Shown here in pieces: positions 3,936 through 63,757 of a DNA stretch of 64,000 bases (its first letter is position 1; each line of letters starts with the position of its first letter). A program made the translations under genes and the position numbers. The notes below the pieces were generated by a model, which saw only the letters and a program-made list of their open reading frames with translations, had not been told where the DNA came from and searched no databases. Source of the stretch: Bacteriovoracia bacterium (lineage in GTDB: Bacteria > Bdellovibrionota > Bacteriovoracia > Bacteriovoracales > Bacteriovoracaceae); the NCBI GenBank assembly GCA_030431635.1, contig JAUIIL010000003.1, positions 1 through 64,000 of the forward strand, given 5' to 3'.

Positions 3936-3962
3936 GAAAAAGGCCCTGGTTTTCAGGGCCTT
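3936..3962 (-). terminator. Rho-independent terminator after the Cys/Trp repeat gene
   Basis: Read on the minus strand: 9-bp stem AAGGCCCTG / CAGGGCCTT with an A/C loop and a following T run. It lies directly downstream of the stop codon of the 3971-4891 gene. Confidence 0.85.
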
Positions 3963-3970
3963 ACACTCTA

Positions 3971-4891
3971 CTATCTATGATTCATGAGCTGTCTTAGCTG
4001 TATGTTTTTTTGAAAGCGATTATTCTCTACCTCTGGTTCATCAAAAACATTCACAGGTCCTCTATTAGGCCCTTCACTTGAAATATCTCTGACAGGTTTA
4101 ATAGGTTTTTTAATTGGGTAAACACATTTATAGGTTTGAAAATCCCAATTACCACCATTTTTTTGGCAATTTGCTTGTGGAAGAGAATTTCCTAATTCAA
4201 TTTTTGGTTTTGTAAAAGAGTAAAAACATTTTTGAACTGCTGAATTCCAAGTCCCTTTACTCTCTTTACATTTTTTTTCCTCAAGCCCCATTGGATTGAC
4301 ATTAGTTAGGGCAGGGTTTTTAAGTTCTTGTAAACCACCAACACATTGTCCATTACTCCATCTTCCACCACGTCTTGAGCAATCCATTTGTTGAACATTA
4401 GAGACACTGGTGTCATTAATGACTGGAGGATTATTAATTTTTAAAATAGGTTTATTAGGTAATTGAGTGTGGTGAATACTGTCTAATTTATCTGGTTTAT
4501 CACATTTATTTGTTCTTACATTCCATAAACCATTTTGCATCTCACAGTCTCTCTTTTGAACATTAGAGCTATGGATAGGATTCTCTTTTGGTAAACATTT
4601 TTTTTCAACCTTAGAGAAAACTTCATTCATAGAACATTTAACACCGAGGTCGATAACTTTAGGTCTATCTATTGTTAAAATTTTTCTATTATTATAATTT
4701 TCAATTTTTTGTTGTGTCTTTTGGGTCCTTTTTTCAGTTAAATCTGGTGTTGCTAGATAAGGGTTAGGATTACCAACGGCCCTGGTCTCCATCGCGCGCC
4801 CGGCCCTCTCTTGAGCTGCCTTTAATCTTGGGTTTAGCGAGTAGGCCTCATGTAAACTAAAGCTTATAAGTAAGAGTAGAGTTAATTTCAT
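3971..4891 (-). CDS. Secreted protein with four C-x3-GG-x-W-xn-C repeats (306 aa)
   Basis: The signal peptide is MKLTLLLLISFSLHEAYS. A basic, Asn/Pro-rich N-terminal region is followed by four copies of one short motif in which two Cys flank a Gly-x-Trp: C116-C130 (CEMQNGLWNVRTNKC), C171-C183 (CSRRGGRWSNGQC), C208-C222 (CKESKGTWNSAVQKC) and C242-C256 (CQKNGGNWDFQTYKC). Pro/Asn-rich spacers separate them. Each pair probably forms a small disulfide-closed loop in the periplasm or on the surface. The same motif occurs in the prepilin-like genes at 56-62 kb. The start has a strong upstream purine run (GGGGGG). No named family; function unknown. Confidence 0.82.
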   Translation of the reverse strand: MKLTLLLLISFSLHEAYSLNPRLKAAQERAGRAMETRAVGNPNPYLATPDLTEKRTQKTQQKIENYNNRKILTIDRPKVIDLGVKCSMNEVFSKVEKKCLPKENPIHSSNVQKRDCEMQNGLWNVRTNKCDKPDKLDSIHHTQLPNKPILKINNPPVINDTSVSNVQQMDCSRRGGRWSNGQCVGGLQELKNPALTNVNPMGLEEKKCKESKGTWNSAVQKCFYSFTKPKIELGNSLPQANCQKNGGNWDFQTYKCVYPIKKPIKPVRDISSEGPNRGPVNVFDEPEVENNRFQKNIQLRQLMNHR

Positions 4892-5077: not shown

Positions 5078-5638
5078 CTATTTTGATAAGTTAGGAGCAC
5101 ACTGAAAGAATTTTTTCTTGGCCTCTTTTAAGAGAGTATTTTGAGGACAATAAAATGAATTCCTATCTTGTAAGGGATAAAGGCGATTCATTTGGGCTAG
5201 TTCTTTACAGATAAAAGTAGATTCATTTTCTTCAAGTGCAAACGCTTTCGAAGGATCTAGGCATTGACATTCATTTTCTTGATAGATTTGCCCATGGAGG
5301 CACTGTTTAAGGCGGCATTGGCCAGTCTTATCAATGAATTCATTTGAATCATGACAAACACATTTTTGTGATTCTTTATTATAAGAAGCTTTTGAGGGAC
5401 AGGCGCAAGCTATCGAGTGACCACCATCTGGGAATTCAAAACCAAAGGGGCAAGAGATTTTTTTTAAACATACGACTCCAGAAAAAACTTCATCATCATG
5501 ACAAGATGTTTTATGTTCTTCTCTATTCTTGTTCATAAGTTCTCTTTCTTGGACAACTTCAGAGCGCTTTAAAGCTCTTTTCATAGGCTGAGCAAAACTG
5601 ATTGAAAAAAAAGAAATAATTAAAATAAAAACTTTCAT
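5078..5638 (-). CDS. Secreted Cys-rich protein (186 aa)
   Basis: The signal peptide is MKVFILIISFFSISFA. The mature part holds 14 Cys, many in CxC or closely spaced pairs (ACACPSK, KCVCHDS, ECQCLDP), a spacing like EGF-type or trypsin-inhibitor-like disulfide modules, though I cannot assign one. Each block begins with a phrase such as CPFGFEFPDG or CLHGQIYQENEC, so it is probably two or three degenerate repeats. The start lies 6 bases after the end of the HEAT-repeat gene, and its ribosome site (AAGGTGG) is inside that gene's 3' end, so the two are likely one operon. Probable location is periplasmic or surface. Confidence 0.78.
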   Translation of the reverse strand: MKVFILIISFFSISFAQPMKRALKRSEVVQERELMNKNREEHKTSCHDDEVFSGVVCLKKISCPFGFEFPDGGHSIACACPSKASYNKESQKCVCHDSNEFIDKTGQCRLKQCLHGQIYQENECQCLDPSKAFALEENESTFICKELAQMNRLYPLQDRNSFYCPQNTLLKEAKKKFFQCAPNLSK

Positions 5639-56474: not shown

Positions 56475-57965
56475 TTAATTACAAGTGTAGCTGACTTCTA
56501 AGAAAACTCCACTTCCTCCTCCACAATCATATCGGTGCGAAGCTGGACATGGATTTGATGGAGAACACTCTACTGTTGTTGGGTATTCAGCTTGGCCTTG
56601 ACCCGTGTTGCAACCAGCATTGAAGTTTTCAGTCCTATAGCAATAACCTTGAGTTGCTCCACCCCCGGTTGTATTACCAGTCGTCGTTGTACCGCTACCG
56701 TCGTTGCATCCTGTATTTCCAGAACCCGATCCTCCGCTGCAATTTTGATTGCCTGAATCAGTTGCTCCGCATGCTCTAGAGCAACTTCCACTTAAAGAGC
56801 AATTCTCAGGTGCAGAACCACAACTTCCTCCACACTTAGCATCACAAGAAATTGATGCTGTTTGAGCCTGTCCTGCCGTACAAGAGCTTGGGGTCCAGTT
56901 TGGAGTAGACCAACTACCAAGTTGGGCACAGGTTGAGCCTGTTCCATTTCTTAAACAATTATTTTGTGAAGAGCAGCCATTTGGAAGACCAGAGCAATTA
57001 TCATTAGAACAAACAGCGACACCTGTTTCTTGACATGAGTTATTACATTGACCAGACCAATTAATGCTCCAAGTTCCTTGAGGTGGTGGAGTTGAAGCCC
57101 CTGTTGTTGTTCCGGAGCTAGAACCACCAGAGCTAGCTCCACTAGAGTTTCCCGAGCTTGTCCCCCCAGAAGTAGATCCTCCTGAACTTGAGCCAGAAGT
57201 CGATGTTGTGGGTGGTGGGCAAGGGTTGCAAGTTGAAGTCGCTGAATCCCAACATTGTCCAAGATCAACACAATAAGCTTCGTCAGCATCACAACCAGTT
57301 CCGTTATGTGTTCCTAATTGAGCTCCTTGGGTATTAGAGTAGGCCATAGCATTACAGTTATCAACAGACTCAGTTGTTTCGTTGACATCACAAGCTCTAG
57401 TGGCCACGTTCCAAGTTCCTCCTGTTTTTTCACAAGACTCTTGAAGATTTTCGTATTCAAGAAAACCAGTAGAGCAATCAACAACCTGGCTTCCATTTAA
57501 TCTAACATTAATAACTGAAGTCCGAGTAAGAGTTGAAACTCCTGTAACTTGTTTATTTATGTCACTGGGATTTTTATTATAAACAATTTCTAAAGTTGCT
57601 TTTGCAATTGGCGCTCCAACAAGATTTGTAATTCTGGCTGAAGAAATAGCAATTCCAGTGAAGTTTCCACCTAATTGATTATTACTGATGGCAAAACCGG
57701 CAACAGCTCCTGTTGCGTTTATACTTCCCCCAGCCAAGGCTCCATTAAAAGAGTTCTGACAAATTGTTGATGATTCTAAAAGAGTGACGATTCTTTTATG
57801 AAGCTTATTAATATTGAGGGATTTTTTTTGGTTATGTCCCGAGTCCCCGACAACTTTAAGAGCCTGCATAATTCCAACAGAGACAATTCCAACAACTGCA
57901 GCTGAAATTAAAACTTCAGCTAGGGAAAAACCTTTTTGGTTATTTAAAATTTTATTAATCAGCAT
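56475..57965 (-). CDS. Prepilin-like protein with Cys-rich C-terminus (496 aa)
   Basis: Start at ATG 57965 with GGAGGAG upstream and overlap with the previous stop. Prepilin cleavage site KG|FSLAEVLISAAVVGI (Glu5 present, G12/F13 cut). A short pilin-like domain follows to ~residue 165. Then the C-x3-GG-x-W motif C178-C192 (CEKTGGTWNVATRAC), a Gly/Ser/Thr-rich linker (~residues 250-295), and a Trp/Cys module: TWSINWSGQCNNSCQETG, then CLRNGTGSTC, SWSTPNWTP, CDAKCGGSCG. Probably a minor pilin at the pilus surface or tip. Third gene of the trio. Confidence 0.85.
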   Translation of the reverse strand: MLINKILNNQKGFSLAEVLISAAVVGIVSVGIMQALKVVGDSGHNQKKSLNINKLHKRIVTLLESSTICQNSFNGALAGGSINATGAVAGFAISNNQLGGNFTGIAISSARITNLVGAPIAKATLEIVYNKNPSDINKQVTGVSTLTRTSVINVRLNGSQVVDCSTGFLEYENLQESCEKTGGTWNVATRACDVNETTESVDNCNAMAYSNTQGAQLGTHNGTGCDADEAYCVDLGQCWDSATSTCNPCPPPTTSTSGSSSGGSTSGGTSSGNSSGASSGGSSSGTTTGASTPPPQGTWSINWSGQCNNSCQETGVAVCSNDNCSGLPNGCSSQNNCLRNGTGSTCAQLGSWSTPNWTPSSCTAGQAQTASISCDAKCGGSCGSAPENCSLSGSCSRACGATDSGNQNCSGGSGSGNTGCNDGSGTTTTGNTTGGGATQGYCYRTENFNAGCNTGQGQAEYPTTVECSPSNPCPASHRYDCGGGSGVFLEVSYTCN

Positions 57966-60156
57966 TGAAATCTCCTCCAGCTGCACCACCAGTACTAGTA
58001 CTGGAAGACGAAGAGCAAACGGCTACACTATTACAAAAACAATAATTAGTAAGACATTTGTCGATTCCTGTGGGATGTTCATTATCTCTAATATCAGAGG
58101 CGTCTAAAAAGCAATATCCATATGCTCCCGCATTAGTACTTGTCATTAAACCCTGCTGAATAAGCTGTGCCGCAGTGTCGTTATTATAAGCAAAGATTTT
58201 TTTATTACAGCAGTTATTAGAAGTATAACCTTCTGGAAGAGGGTAACCATCTGGAAGGCAATTTGAAGGAGGGCCTGGTGGCTTAGCTGCAACTGGGCAA
58301 AATTGAGAAAAAGTTTTTGTTGCTGTTTTATTATCACCACTTACTGCAAAGCCTGTATCAGGGCTCCCGCAGTCTCCGCCACATTTAGCATCACAATAAA
58401 CTGTTACATTTTTTGTAAGCGTTTGACCTTCTTTACCAGTACAGTCGAAAGTTGGTGTCGAGTACGTCGACCATGAAGCATCAGCAGCGCAAACAGCTGA
58501 ACCTGTTGATTTGGCTCCATCACGCAAACATGATTGAGCACTTGTACATTCTGTTGGAAGTGGGATGCTTTGATTCATACAATCACTTCCTTTATTACAA
58601 GCGGCAGTTCCTGTTTCATTACATTGATCGCAGTTACCAGACCATGTAATTTCCCAAACGGGTTTTTCGAAACAACTCGCTTCACAAATGTTGTTTGCTT
58701 GTGTGGCACTTCTTGTACATTTTTTTGTTGTTTTATTACAGCCATTTGGAGCTGTTTTTGAATCACAAACAGATTGTGTTCCTGTACAAGAGAGCGTTCC
58801 AACTTCTTCACAACTAGAGTTACAGCTTGCGTTGCTCCAGTCTATATTCCACTCGCCAGTTTCTGTTTCTGTTTCTGTTTCTGTTTCTGTTTCTTCTCCA
58901 CAACCACAAGCCTCTATTGAATTATCTAAAAGAACATATCCTCCAGTATTAGATAGTCCACCTCGAGAAGAAAGAGCGTTAGAAACATTAATAGGAGAGT
59001 TATTGTTATTGCTCGGGTCACAGTTAGCACCGCAAATTTCTCCACTACAGGTGACATCCATTCGGCATTCGTTTCCTGAGCAATAGGCATTACCATTTGA
59101 TGTATAGCGACCATACATCTTACATGTGCCAGGATTTGGATCCATCGCAGGGATTGAATTGGCCCCAATTGGATTTGTTCCATAAGAGTTAATACTGGAA
59201 CTCCAATCTCCCGTGATCATGGTCGAGGTCGATTGAGTACTGGTTGGATCTGTACAAGCTGTACTACATTGACCAGGGTTACATATTGTCGTTCTTGTTC
59301 TGTGACAAGAGTTACAAGCACTCCAAAACTGTCCTGAATAGGTTTGAACACCTTCAGTTGGAAAATCACAGCGATTATTAGTGGCATCCCAACAGGTTGT
59401 TCTTCCTGTTAACCATTGGCATGTTTTCTCACCTTTAATACATGTTGAGGTTGTGGTATCCCAAAGTCCACCCATCATCACACAAGCTTTTTGATTAAAT
59501 TGGTTATCACAAGCTCCTGTAGGGCCGACCCAGCCACCAAGATTTTCACAGAACCGTCTTGAATAATATTCTTCAGATTCCTCTGGATATCCTCCAGATA
59601 CAGCCGTACCTCCATCTCCGCGAAAAACTCTGAATCTAATATCTCTATTAACACTTTTGAGAACTCCTCCCTTGTTGGAAGTGTCTCTATCAATCGTGAC
59701 TCTTAAGACATAAATGGCTTCACCTGGAAAAAGATCTCCACACTTATAAGGAGCAGCAGTCGTTGGCGGGTTTGAATGTGGGCAATAAGCTTCAACACAA
59801 TAAGAAGTCGCCGTGATGTTCACAAGTGGTGTATTAAAACTGAGAGTTCCACCAACTGAGTTTCTAAGGCCATTTCCTGTTCCAAGCGAAGTGAAAGCGG
59901 AGTCAGTGCTACAACCAGAACCTGAAACAGCAGTTGCTTGTGTGCCAGAGAAAGTATTGGCCACAGTTGCCGTGTCTGATAGAAGTTGCCTGAGCTCATT
60001 AGTGAGTTGATCCGTTCTATCAGAAACGTTAATAACTCTCGTTTGCTTGTTCATCAATGAGGCTTCTTTCATGAAAACTGTCGTCATCGTTCCCATGACG
60101 GCTACTAACACCATTGTTTGAACTAGGGACATACCTTTTTGATTTAAAAACTTCAT
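57955..60156 (-). CDS. Prepilin-like protein lacking Glu5, large Cys-rich C-terminus (733 aa)
   Basis: Start at ATG 60156 (16 bases after the upstream stop), giving MKFLNQKG|MSLVQTMVLVAVMG. Position 5 after cleavage is Gln, not Glu. Residues ~40-190 look like a pilin-type beta domain (VSRDRT-like region, FRVFRGDGGTAV). Then Cys-rich: FCENLGGWVGPTGAC, CVMMGGLWDTTTSTC, CWDATNNRC, two tandem Trp/Cys modules (WNIDWSNASCNSSCEEVG and WEITWSGNCDQCNETG), and CDAKCGGDCG. The linker before the first module contains a (Glu-Thr)n run from a hexanucleotide repeat. Probably a pilus tip component, like GspK/PilX types that lack Glu5. Confidence 0.82.
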   Translation of the reverse strand: MKFLNQKGMSLVQTMVLVAVMGTMTTVFMKEASLMNKQTRVINVSDRTDQLTNELRQLLSDTATVANTFSGTQATAVSGSGCSTDSAFTSLGTGNGLRNSVGGTLSFNTPLVNITATSYCVEAYCPHSNPPTTAAPYKCGDLFPGEAIYVLRVTIDRDTSNKGGVLKSVNRDIRFRVFRGDGGTAVSGGYPEESEEYYSRRFCENLGGWVGPTGACDNQFNQKACVMMGGLWDTTTSTCIKGEKTCQWLTGRTTCWDATNNRCDFPTEGVQTYSGQFWSACNSCHRTRTTICNPGQCSTACTDPTSTQSTSTMITGDWSSSINSYGTNPIGANSIPAMDPNPGTCKMYGRYTSNGNAYCSGNECRMDVTCSGEICGANCDPSNNNNSPINVSNALSSRGGLSNTGGYVLLDNSIEACGCGEETETETETETETGEWNIDWSNASCNSSCEEVGTLSCTGTQSVCDSKTAPNGCNKTTKKCTRSATQANNICEASCFEKPVWEITWSGNCDQCNETGTAACNKGSDCMNQSIPLPTECTSAQSCLRDGAKSTGSAVCAADASWSTYSTPTFDCTGKEGQTLTKNVTVYCDAKCGGDCGSPDTGFAVSGDNKTATKTFSQFCPVAAKPPGPPSNCLPDGYPLPEGYTSNNCCNKKIFAYNNDTAAQLIQQGLMTSTNAGAYGYCFLDASDIRDNEHPTGIDKCLTNYCFCNSVAVCSSSSSTSTGGAAGGDFNAD
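58860..58895. repeat. TTTCTG hexanucleotide repeat (about six copies)
   Basis: Five perfect and one imperfect TTTCTG copies encode the Glu-Thr run in the middle prepilin. The unit is a multiple of 3, so copy-number change would lengthen or shorten the linker without a frameshift. Confidence 0.8.
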
Positions 60157-60172
60157 AATATTCTCTTTTTCC

Positions 60173-62152
60173 CTACGGGCAATGACATTTATTTTGTTTG
60201 TAAGCAACATCACACCCCATAGGTGTCTCTATTCCTACACATGCTGTACTGTTATCATTAGAACATTGCATGATTGCATCATCAAAATTTGATTGTCCGG
60301 TTTTACATTCAATTCCATTAAAGGATTGATAAACCGTATAGCCAGGCTCTAGTTGACAAGCACCGCCAGGGCATTGTGAGTCAGTTTGACAAATATTAGT
60401 CTCACTACACACTTCTCCAGTCGGATCGTCATTATTACCATTGTTAAGAGAGCAAACAGGAACTTCTCCACAAAAACAATAATCAGAAATACAATTCATT
60501 CCAGGAGAGTAGTCTGATGGAGGAGGAAGTGTTCCTGATAAACATTTTGCCCCACCTTGGGCGCCCCAAGTGAAACCATCCCCTTTAGCTTGGTGGTAAC
60601 CAACTATTTTATAATTATCACAACAAGATTCTTCACTGTATGTCTCGCCTTCTCCTCCTCCAAAAGGAAGTTGCCCACCTTTTGGAATACATTGTTCCGA
60701 ATCATCAGTTTTTGGACAAGTTTTAGAACACATGGCCTTATCTCCAAACTGTCCTCCTGTATTAATGATATTACATTCTGGTGGAAGAATATCACAACTT
60801 CCACCACAACTATTAGAGCAAGAAACTGTTGCAAATAGAGGTATCTCACCTAAAGAGTCAGAAGGGCAGCTTCCATAAGCTGGTGTTTGCCAAGTTCCAC
60901 TTTTTGCACAAACTCCACCCATTCCACTTCGAGTACATTGTCCGTTGGCATTACATCCAGTGGGAGGAGCACCACAAGTCCCACCACTACAAGTAGTGAC
61001 ACCTGTTTCATTACACCCGCTGCAAGTCCCGCTCCATGAAATAGGTGACCAAGTTCCAGTATTTGATGGATTAGTGTTTGAAGGATTGGTATTTGTCGTT
61101 GGAGGTGTACAAACAGTAGTATTCCCAGCTCCACAAACTGCACAAGTACAATCCGCTGGGTTACAATTAGCATCTCCATTACAGCAAGTAGGTTTGTTCT
61201 CGCATCTTCCACAACTCTCACCTGTTGAAGAGCTTGGGCCGCACTCTGTTCCATCTGTGAGAGCAAAGTCATAGCAGGCCCCATTAACCCATCTTTTTCC
61301 TAGAGTAAGACAGATAACTTCAGGAGCATTTTGACAACGAGTATCCCAGTTAAGAGTTTCATTATTGTTGTATGTAATATGGTTATTTGGGATGGACGAG
61401 CCATCATAGGGATTGACTAAGCCAGAGCGATTAAAATCTTCACAAGTTTTTCTAAAAAAATCATGGGCACAACGACCTAGAGGAGAAGTCACATCGATTT
61501 CATTAAGTCCGTCTGCAATGTTGTTGTCATAAGGATCGATGAGCTTAAAACTTTGAGAATTAGGAGACCAGTTCGAGCCTCCTGTTAAATTGCTACAAGA
61601 TTGATCGAGGGAAACAGTTCTTGAGTTTGTATCAGAAACAAGGCCTTGGATTCTTCCATTTGAATCAAGAGAAACGAGAAGTTTTAATTGAACAATTTGA
61701 GCTTGTCCTTGTCCACCAATTAAAGTTTGGCCATTTGTATTTTTAGTAAAACTTCCTTGAATCGTCACTAATGCTGGTCTTGAAGCGGCAGCACTTCCTG
61801 TGGCCAATGGTGATATTTCTGTGATGGCTATATTTCCAACGGTTACTTTTCCAAAAACAGATCCACTTGCAAGCACCGTTCTTCCACTATATTCAATAGT
61901 TCTTCCACCACTGTTAAGAGAAACTGGAGAATTAACTCCAACGATTTCGTTTTGAAAAACATTTTCGTTACTAAAAACATTTTCCATATAATATTTAACA
62001 GCGCTAATATCGCTCTCTCTTTGCCTGGTGGCATCTTGGTTCGACTTCATTTTAAAAACACCAACAACTCCCAAGGAGACGATGGAGCCAACACCAAGAG
62101 CAATCATAAGTTCGGCCAGTGAAAAACCGTTATTTTTTAAAAAATTCTTCAT
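60173..62152 (-). CDS. Prepilin-like protein with Cys-rich C-terminus (659 aa)
   Basis: First gene of the trio. Prepilin signal NNG|FSLAELMIALGVGSIVS with Glu5. Residues ~30-180 are the pilin-type region. The C-terminal ~450 residues are Cys-rich and include CLTLGKRWVNGAC, CGRCENKPTCCNGDANC, the Trp/Cys module TWSPISWSGTCSGCNETG then CSGGTCGAPPTGCNANGQC, CAKSGTW, SCSNSCGGSCD, and further Cys blocks (CSKTCPK, CFCGEVPVC-like). A single-cell-surface or pilus-tip role is likely. Start ATG 62152, ribosome site GAGGATGT. Confidence 0.85.
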   Translation of the reverse strand: MKNFLKNNGFSLAELMIALGVGSIVSLGVVGVFKMKSNQDATRQRESDISAVKYYMENVFSNENVFQNEIVGVNSPVSLNSGGRTIEYSGRTVLASGSVFGKVTVGNIAITEISPLATGSAAASRPALVTIQGSFTKNTNGQTLIGGQGQAQIVQLKLLVSLDSNGRIQGLVSDTNSRTVSLDQSCSNLTGGSNWSPNSQSFKLIDPYDNNIADGLNEIDVTSPLGRCAHDFFRKTCEDFNRSGLVNPYDGSSIPNNHITYNNNETLNWDTRCQNAPEVICLTLGKRWVNGACYDFALTDGTECGPSSSTGESCGRCENKPTCCNGDANCNPADCTCAVCGAGNTTVCTPPTTNTNPSNTNPSNTGTWSPISWSGTCSGCNETGVTTCSGGTCGAPPTGCNANGQCTRSGMGGVCAKSGTWQTPAYGSCPSDSLGEIPLFATVSCSNSCGGSCDILPPECNIINTGGQFGDKAMCSKTCPKTDDSEQCIPKGGQLPFGGGEGETYSEESCCDNYKIVGYHQAKGDGFTWGAQGGAKCLSGTLPPPSDYSPGMNCISDYCFCGEVPVCSLNNGNNDDPTGEVCSETNICQTDSQCPGGACQLEPGYTVYQSFNGIECKTGQSNFDDAIMQCSNDNSTACVGIETPMGCDVAYKQNKCHCP

Positions 62153-62408: not shown

Positions 62409-63215
62409 ATGAAAGAAAAAAATCAACAACTGTATTATCAGTATAGAGCAAGTGAAGGCTTTCCCATATTTGTGAAATTAGTTGAACCACAGCTAGAAAG
62501 CCAGATGAGTTCTTTTTTAAATGAAATGGGATTTGAAAAGTGTAATGAAGAAGTTCTCACAAAAGAACATGATCGCCCTGAGTACCTTCGTGTACTAAAA
62601 ATATCAGTAGCTGGTCCTATGGTTTCCAAGCAAATTGGTCAGGTCAGAGAAGAAGATCGTTATGGCCTTGAAAGTATTAGTTCAAGAGGAGATTACAAGG
62701 TATACCGTTTTAAAGGTGTTGGAATAATGGTGTTCTCTGAAGGGCGTTTTATTTGGGAAATGGGCTTGATGAACAGGTTCTCCCAAGAAGACTTCCATTA
62801 TAAACTCAGAATTGTTTTCAATCGATTTTTAGGCTACTGCCTTGCCAGTTATAATATTATTGGGGTTTGGGGAGTTAGCGTTGATGAAGGTGCTGTTGTT
62901 ATGTCCCAAGCTGAATCAAAAGGTGAAGCTGTATTTATTGACTTAGATAATCAAGTGCTTCATACAATAGAGGGATTAAAGCCTTTAAGTTTTCCACTTC
63001 AATTTTTAAAACTTGATGAGAGTATTAAAAACCAGTCAAGAAAGCTTCAAGTTGAAGAATTAGTAAGTTTGCTTACACATTACAATACTTATTTCTCTGA
63101 TGAAGGTTTTTCATCTTCATTTCAAAAAAGAATTTTTGCTCTAGCCAGAAGTTCAGAAGGGATTTTATATCCTAAAGAGAATTTTAAACCTCGAGAAAAG
63201 GAAAAAGCGGCTTAA
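62409..63215 (+). CDS. Hypothetical protein (268 aa)
   Basis: ATG with GGGAGG upstream. No signal peptide; soluble and mixed alpha/beta (YLRVLKISVAGPM, YKVYRFKGVGIMVFSEG, VWGVSVDEGAVVMSQAESKG, EAVFIDLDNQVLHTIEGLK). No family recognised. Its 3' end overlaps the convergent 63212 gene by 4 bases. The 256-base gap before it (62153-62408) holds no gene I can support. Confidence 0.7.
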   Translation: MKEKNQQLYYQYRASEGFPIFVKLVEPQLESQMSSFLNEMGFEKCNEEVLTKEHDRPEYLRVLKISVAGPMVSKQIGQVREEDRYGLESISSRGDYKVYRFKGVGIMVFSEGRFIWEMGLMNRFSQEDFHYKLRIVFNRFLGYCLASYNIIGVWGVSVDEGAVVMSQAESKGEAVFIDLDNQVLHTIEGLKPLSFPLQFLKLDESIKNQSRKLQVEELVSLLTHYNTYFSDEGFSSSFQKRIFALARSSEGILYPKENFKPREKEKAA

Positions 63216-63757
63216 GGTTTTTTTGTTTTATTTTCGAGTTCAGTATTCAAAACACTGTCTTTCAGCGGAATGAGTGCTTTGGGTCTCTTCTCTTTACTAA
63301 AAACACCTGAGAAAAAAATAGGGAAACAGGTTATCGTGCATGCAGCAGAATAAATATAATCAATACCGTCTTTGTTTTCCCAAGAATAAACAGAATGCTC
63401 GTTTTGGTTTAAATATTTTTGTTGAGGGCCCAATCGTTTAATAATTCCTTGATGAAAAACGTCATGAAGAAAATAGGTTGGAAGAGTTGCATAAAAATCA
63501 ACAATAATTCCTTCATTAACTTGAATAAGAACAGGAAACTTATAACGAAGCTGCGACACATAAAATTTGTAAGTAGAAATTTTTCCTTTCTTATTAACTA
63601 ATTCTTTATTTAATTTAATATCAGAGATTTTTTTACCAGGAAAAAATTTTTCAAGCTCTTTAAAACTGAAATCATAGTTTGGTGGAGTCACTTTCGCGTT
63701 AAGAGCAAAAGAAAAAGCTAAAATAATGATGAGTATTTTGGTACAAAAGAAGCTCAT
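63212..63757 (-). CDS. Secreted hypothetical protein (181 aa)
   Basis: Signal peptide IILAFSFALNA. The mature part is mixed (FSFKELEKFFPGKKISDIKL, HSVYSWENKDGIDYIYSA, CTITCFPIFFSGVFS with two Cys). No family recognised. Periplasmic by inference. Confidence 0.68.
   Translation of the reverse strand: MSFFCTKILIIILAFSFALNAKVTPPNYDFSFKELEKFFPGKKISDIKLNKELVNKKGKISTYKFYVSQLRYKFPVLIQVNEGIIVDFYATLPTYFLHDVFHQGIIKRLGPQQKYLNQNEHSVYSWENKDGIDYIYSAACTITCFPIFFSGVFSKEKRPKALIPLKDSVLNTELENKTKKP

Follow-up and report, generated by a model that had tools for sequence, protein, structure and literature searches.

A short two-cysteine module of Bdellovibrionota prepilins and a predicted secreted protein with four copies of it

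The reverse strand of the window analysed here (a stretch of 64,000 nucleotides at the start of contig JAUIIL010000003.1 of a Bacteriovoracia bacterium) encodes a predicted secreted protein of 306 residues (3971..4891), referred to below as rep306. It contains several copies of a short motif of the type C-x3-GG-x-W-xn-C, which also appears in a trio of prepilin-like proteins more than 50 kb away. This raises the questions of whether the likeness is more than accidental, what sort of module the motif marks and why a secreted protein should carry it.

A first-pass annotation of the window had described four such motifs in rep306, and all four are present in the form C-x3-[GNK]G-x-W-xn-C, with an exact Gly-Gly in two of the four and Asn-Gly and Lys-Gly in the rest. 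They lie on the reverse strand at 4502..4546 (module 1, CEMQNGLWNVRTNKC), 4343..4381 (module 2, CSRRGGRWSNGQC), 4226..4270 (module 3, CKESKGTWNSAVQKC) and 4124..4168 (module 4, CQKNGGNWDFQTYKC), each located by reading of the motif and by a profile match. The ten cysteines of rep306 form five spaced pairs (86–99, 116–130, 171–183, 208–222 and 242–256), all four tryptophans are inside the last four of these pairs, and the linkers between pairs are rich in Asn, Pro and Lys. The first pair (4595..4636, reverse strand; CSMNEVFSKVEKKC) is without the GG-W element and could be either a degenerate unit or an unrelated pair. Composition-keeping shuffles of the protein contain a mean of 0.0013 units, and none of 20,000 reaches the four observed.

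An N-terminal signal peptide of the Sec type (MKLTLLLLISFSLHEAYS) can be recognized by eye in rep306, and the Pfam and NCBIfam scans gave no match to a prepilin N-terminal motif. The computed pI is about 9.6, compared with 4.6–4.8 for the trio prepilins. The codon-position base signature of the frame resembles that of the neighbouring genes, and a purine run (AAGGGGGGAA) lies just 5' of the ATG, with a run of G 6–11 bases upstream. A terminator-like stem-loop with a T-rich tail directly follows the gene (3940..3962, reverse strand); this is a weak indication, as the one such element found in the region does not exceed the 1.7 expected from shuffles. No match to PDB sequences was obtained at E ≤ 5. 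Resemblances of residues 195–251 to the Mg-chelatase ChlI/YifB family (Pfam E 0.078, NCBIfam E 0.017, below the cut-off) and of the protein to phrog_17102 (E 0.22) were taken as chance.

The trio occupies 56475–62152 on the same strand and consists of p504 (56475..57989), p752 (57955..60213) and the Cys-rich p659 (60173..62152). The prepilin family N_methyl (PF07963) is matched by p504 and p659 (26.9 and 23.3 bits, with a cut-off of 21.2). No Pfam match at E ≤ 1 was found for p752; its GMSLVQ start (GMSLVQTMVLVAVM) is followed by a hydrophobic stretch, and it has a prepilin-like homologue in the related genome G034. Four units occur in these proteins as the first-pass annotation described them, again by motif reading and profile match: one in p504 (57390..57434; CEKTGGTWNVATRAC), two in p752 (59509..59550, CENLGGWVGPTGAC, with zero residues between Gly-Gly and Trp; 59440..59484, CVMMGGLWDTTTSTC) and one in p659, far from the pilin start (61274..61312; CLTLGKRWVNGAC, a Gly-Lys variant). 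Two degenerate units had been missed, one in p504 (57228..57272; CVDLGQCWDSATSTC) and one in p752, recognized from a reading of the sequence (59368..59421; CQWLTGRTTCWDATNNRC). The cysteine content of the trio is very high (32, 52 and 48 residues), and the observed unit count is reached by 116, one and 183 of 20,000 shuffles of p504, p752 and p659, respectively; single copies there are thus less improbable than the four of rep306.

Three profiles of increasing breadth were used for searches, namely A1 (the eight window units), A2 (19 units, with Phe and Tyr allowed) and A10 (59 units). In the genome that contains the window, A1 recovers the eight window units at E ≤ 2.4 × 10−6, followed at E 0.29 by the degenerate p504 unit, which A2 scores at a likewise sub-threshold 0.39. 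A2 finds only the eight window units at E ≤ 0.01 (next best 0.26); at this threshold A10 recovers six of them and has no match in the rest of the genome. A strict search at the DNA level for C-x3-GG-x-W gives seven matches in the whole genome, four of them in the window, and its backward version gives none; the three outside the window are in short frames of 15–44 codons that are not evident genes. The six prepilin-like reading frames inspected elsewhere in the genome (five in a type II secretion-like cluster and one further pilin, loci L050 and L051) lack both the module and a cysteine at position +57, counted from the glycine of the prepilin processing site. The proposal that the module is spread through the exported proteins of this organism is not borne out, all three profiles being confident only in the four window proteins.

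Across the phylum, A2 matches 47 of 368 genomes at E ≤ 0.01, the source genome included; for a decoy of the same rows in exact reverse, which has no positive control of its own, the count is 0 of 368. These matches are to be read with the knowledge that the profiles were trained partly on the matched sequences: five of the 47 genomes (the source genome, G034, G093, G095 and G033) match at rows used in the build, and G113 contributed a row to A2 yet matches at another place. When only the family is searched, 36 of 129 genomes have an A10 match. Chance resemblance among Cys-rich proteins, for which the composition of the trio and the up to 183 of 20,000 shuffles leave some room, is a very improbable explanation given the contrast with the decoy, the absence of any shuffle of rep306 that reaches four units and the fixed length and cysteine plan in relatives described below.

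All A2 places outside the window were read, giving 54 distinct reading frames in 46 genomes. A prepilin-like start is recognized in 44 of the 54 by a pattern that was drawn up once the matches were known; it is recognized in 10 of 168 other frames of at least 150 residues at these loci, or 9 of 164 when repeats are removed, and those ten are prepilin-like neighbours, some with weak modules. By eye, L074, L089 and L092 also look like prepilins, and L072, truncated by the contig end, shows a pilin body, which brings the total to 48. Independent labels are provided by Pfam N_methyl, found in 28 of the 54, and by NCBIfam IV_pilin_GFxxxE, found in 20. The six non-prepilin frames comprise L101, L083, L091, L107 and the short spurious frames L076 and L093; since about 3.7 chance matches are expected at E ≤ 0.01 over 368 genomes, none of the six is claimed as a carrier. 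The module is a prepilin feature across the phylum, not one general to exported proteins, and rep306 is the only confident non-prepilin carrier seen when set beside the 54 non-window frames from the 368-genome search. L101 (genome G009), a frame of 333 residues, appears by eye to be secreted; close to its N-terminus lies a C-x3-HG-x-W-x6-C unit, and the region after it has the look of a transglutaminase-type cysteine protease. No Pfam family matches this frame, and at E 0.0074 its module match is no better than chance.

For most of the prepilin bodies encountered, annotation from the Pfam and NCBIfam scans is limited to the N-terminus. Peptidase_S74 was detected in three of the 54 carriers (Pfam, first 330 residues scanned). 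In prepilins of G095 (L042) and G033 (L046) the module is followed by stretches that appear tail-fibre-like by eye. In several family genomes, module-bearing prepilins stand two or three in a row (L148, L106, L139 and L143), and the tandem prepilins checked in L148, L139 and L143 each have their own cysteine at +57.

The consensus of the module is C-x-[SA]-[LIM]-G-G-[TV]-[YFW]-[DN]-x2-T-x2-C. Tryptophan, taken at first as a defining residue, holds this place in the window units; in relatives it is one of three aromatics (10 Trp, 13 Tyr and 12 Phe, with one Ile, among 36). Among the 47 prepilin-like carriers (the 54 frames without L072, which is truncated, and without the six non-prepilins), the first module is exactly 15 residues long in 36. 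Position +57 is a cysteine in 42 of the 47, and in a further one the cysteine is at +58; 45 have a cysteine among the 40 residues that precede the module. The two carriers without this pre-module cysteine (L097 and the frame at 8174 of L041) also have none at +57 or +58, an association with a Fisher p value of 0.0056 that is generous because the rows are related. In an alignment of 19 module-bearing pilin bodies, cysteines 69, 178 and 192 of the p504 stretch are invariant and cysteine 164 is kept in at least 90%. Among 24 further family frames listed from the A10 search, four were cut at the end of the stretch and two had already been counted; of the 18 checked, 17 have the +57 cysteine, the exception being L149. 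The residue is also present in five of six distinct module-less prepilin-like frames at the same loci (seven rows, two of which are one G021 protein), and therefore marks a broader set of prepilins than does the module.

Within the trio, p504 has the full four-cysteine plan, with cysteines at +57 and +152 and the module pair at +166/+180. It is the only one of the three with a cysteine at +57, and the one in which C-x3-GG-x-[YFW]-xn-C follows the pilin body with a cysteine ahead of it; p752 and p659 lack the +57 residue, and p752 carries the module with no cysteine shortly before its first copy. The spacing of these residues suggests that two disulfides are likely in the prepilins, one within the body between the +57 and pre-module cysteines and a separate one within the module. 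The module would then sit just after the globular pilin body, where it may either close the pilin or connect it with a larger extension of Cys-rich or tail-fibre-like character.

Structure prediction gives a consistent picture of the module at moderate confidence. AlphaFold2 was applied to a prepilin of Bacteriovoracaceae bacterium UBA3083 (five rows; best of five models with mean pLDDT 70 and pTM 0.58, the other four at pLDDT 50–55) and to module 4 of rep306 (33 residues, nine rows; mean pLDDT 75, pTM 0.38). The UBA3083 module is predicted with a helix at 177–182 and strands at 186–188 and 193–195 (block pLDDT 55–67), and module 4 with a helix at 6–11 and strands at 15–17 and 22–24 (block pLDDT 59–84, with 84 over residues 11–20). 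Counted from the first cysteine, the elements coincide exactly in the two models (helix C−3 to C+2, strands C+6 to C+8 and C+13 to C+15), which are not independent, as the UBA3083 and p504 modules are in both alignments. The module would accordingly be a helix-GG-hairpin of about 15 residues in which the first cysteine is on a short helix, the Gly-Gly provides a break, the first hairpin strand bears the aromatic residue and the second bears the other cysteine, so that a disulfide could close the unit. A Foldseek search of the PDB with the UBA3083 prepilin model returned nothing at E ≤ 0.001. The earlier suggestion of a common small disulfide module stands as regards a shared sequence module, given the phylum counts and the agreement of the two models; the disulfide itself is probable.

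A module of this kind might do no more than staple the chain, its disulfide fixing a turn between domains with no ligand involved, and rep306 could then be a lineage-specific secreted protein with no link to pili that acquired the module independently or from a prepilin gene. This explanation is a serious one, to which we give a probability somewhat short of even. Positions other than the cysteines, the Gly-Gly, one aromatic and a common threonine vary widely, the module lies where the pilin body ends and further parts begin, and a search of 58 related genomes (36 of the same family and 22 of other families, G034 included) detected no relative of rep306 at E ≤ 0.01, all of which would fit a staple. 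An all-purpose staple would not, however, be predicted to occur in the trio and rep306 alone, as the profiles find in this genome.

Library searches bear on a further alternative, in which the module binds carbohydrate or envelope components, serving the prepilins on prey or surface glycans and making rep306 a soluble, multivalent lectin-like adhesin. An aromatic residue in each copy together with repetition of the copies is typical of small sugar binders, and both are found here. Lectin domains are also frequent on modular pilins (PMC8179133), and among the 54 carriers there is a single match to the mannan-binding family MVL (E 0.004), which is about as weak as other one-off matches. Against this, the aromatic swaps freely among Trp, Tyr and Phe, and a peptide of the module consensus has no Pfam match at E ≤ 10 and no PHROGs match at E ≤ 1. 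In the PDB, A2 matches 118 sequences at E ≤ 10 and A10 matches 142 at E ≤ 1, with best E values of 0.065 and 0.05 among the 60 listed in each case. The best of these are antibody heavy chains, through a stretch resembling C-K-A-S-G-G-T-F, and were taken as chance, as were a phage baseplate protein, a surface glycoprotein (5klh) and a dehydrase among the matches listed. Glycan binding is on balance unlikely. No paper naming the module was found in the literature as far as its text could be searched, which is weak evidence of absence because motifs are hard to search as text.

Known systems provide partial parallels. In type IVa pilins the D-region is a disulfide-bonded short loop near the C-terminal end of the globular domain, and the module, if closed as predicted, would be a similarly short loop in a similar position. 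We know of no C-x3-GG-x-aromatic pattern in the D-region, and the bodies here differ from D-region pilins in having two further conserved cysteines upstream. DUF333 likewise contains a C-x3-GG stretch with a second cysteine further on, a likeness set against the lack of any Pfam match to the module consensus. PilY1-type tip adhesins resemble rep306 as secreted non-pilins that may have modules in common with pilins; they have a C-terminal β-propeller, unlike rep306, which has 306 residues and no β-propeller match in Pfam. Modular type IV pilins are described and widespread, PilB of Streptococcus sanguinis being an example (PMC8179133). Their architecture of prepilin N-terminus, pilin body and an extra module towards the C-terminal side appears from sequence to fit the prepilin carriers, and the mention of modules of the S74 peptidase family on pilins in the same paper is paralleled by the three carriers with Peptidase_S74. 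The present module differs in its 15-residue, putatively Cys-closed form, in having no signature in the libraries searched, in the large parts that often come after it and in its occurrence in a non-pilin, rep306. The novelty accordingly lies not in modular pilins themselves but in a previously undefined small prepilin module with one unusual secreted multi-copy relative. A definable module and a fixed cysteine plan make it possible to recognize, from sequence, a little-described family of prepilins in the relatives of predatory bacteria.

The reading preferred here, to which we attach about an even chance, is that the module is a mini-domain with its home in a prepilin-type protein family of Bdellovibrionota and that rep306 is a bead-string, multivalent partner of the trio pili. 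Rep306 would be a basic protein exported by a Sec-type route that presents four module copies on flexible linkers, the only other carrier in its genome, and most likely an extracellular or periplasmic partner. Because of the shared modules, their restriction to four proteins and the difference in charge, we infer that rep306 may engage the acidic prepilins through the common modules or compete for their ligand; the opposite charge of rep306 and the trio is weak support for such a partnership. That the module is purely a staple is almost as probable as the partnership. A more specific proposal is that the mini-domain, with the fixed cysteine plan, belongs to a whole prepilin family throughout Bdellovibrionota and that rep306 is a soluble multivalent string of it, secreted as a linker, cap or decoy that would engage either the pilus itself or the partner to which the pilus binds; this is tentative and less likely than not. 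If true, a string of pilin modules would be a way of bundling or arming pili, which to our knowledge has not been described for type IV pili. Rep306 is a candidate pilus partner that is directly testable.

Gene neighbourhoods in G034 bear on the partnership of rep306 with the trio. At the place corresponding to the trio, this genome has a cluster of four prepilins with seven A2 matches, three of which are in a single prepilin of 228 residues. The cluster adjoins relatives, recognized by eye, of the genes at 62409–63215 and 63212–63757 of the window and precedes ribosomal-protein and obgE-like genes. Since G034 has the cluster and no match to rep306, the latter does not regularly accompany the cluster, and as no relative of rep306 was found in the 58 genomes, the partnership is not conserved. 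The distance of more than 50 kb between rep306 and the trio also counts against a partnership. The equivalent place in G034 (locus L041) includes, at 4041 and 8174, prepilin-like frames of 1105 and 874 residues with 107 and 64 cysteines.

Some further observations concern the surroundings of rep306 and the trio. Adjoining rep306 at 5078–5638 (reverse strand) is a second small Cys-rich protein of 186 residues with 14 cysteines and a signal-like start by eye; besides itself, its search of 129 family genomes gave one weak match, with internal stop codons. FliA has been linked to pilus genes (PMC5430801); FliA-type (flagellar-sigma) promoters have two matches in the window against 1.3 expected, neither of them near rep306 or the trio. 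No relatives of p659 were found in viral contigs. The distal parts of the trio contain a second common Cys-rich unit, which starts with W-x3-4-W-S and has a cysteine two or three residues on (reverse strand; p659 61022–61051, p504 57045–57071, p752 58822–58851 and 58630–58656). Its likeness to the thrombospondin type 1 repeat is a resemblance only, Pfam TSP1 being absent at E ≤ 1 from all three proteins. Between p504 and p659 the distal parts share 43% identity across some 100 residues.
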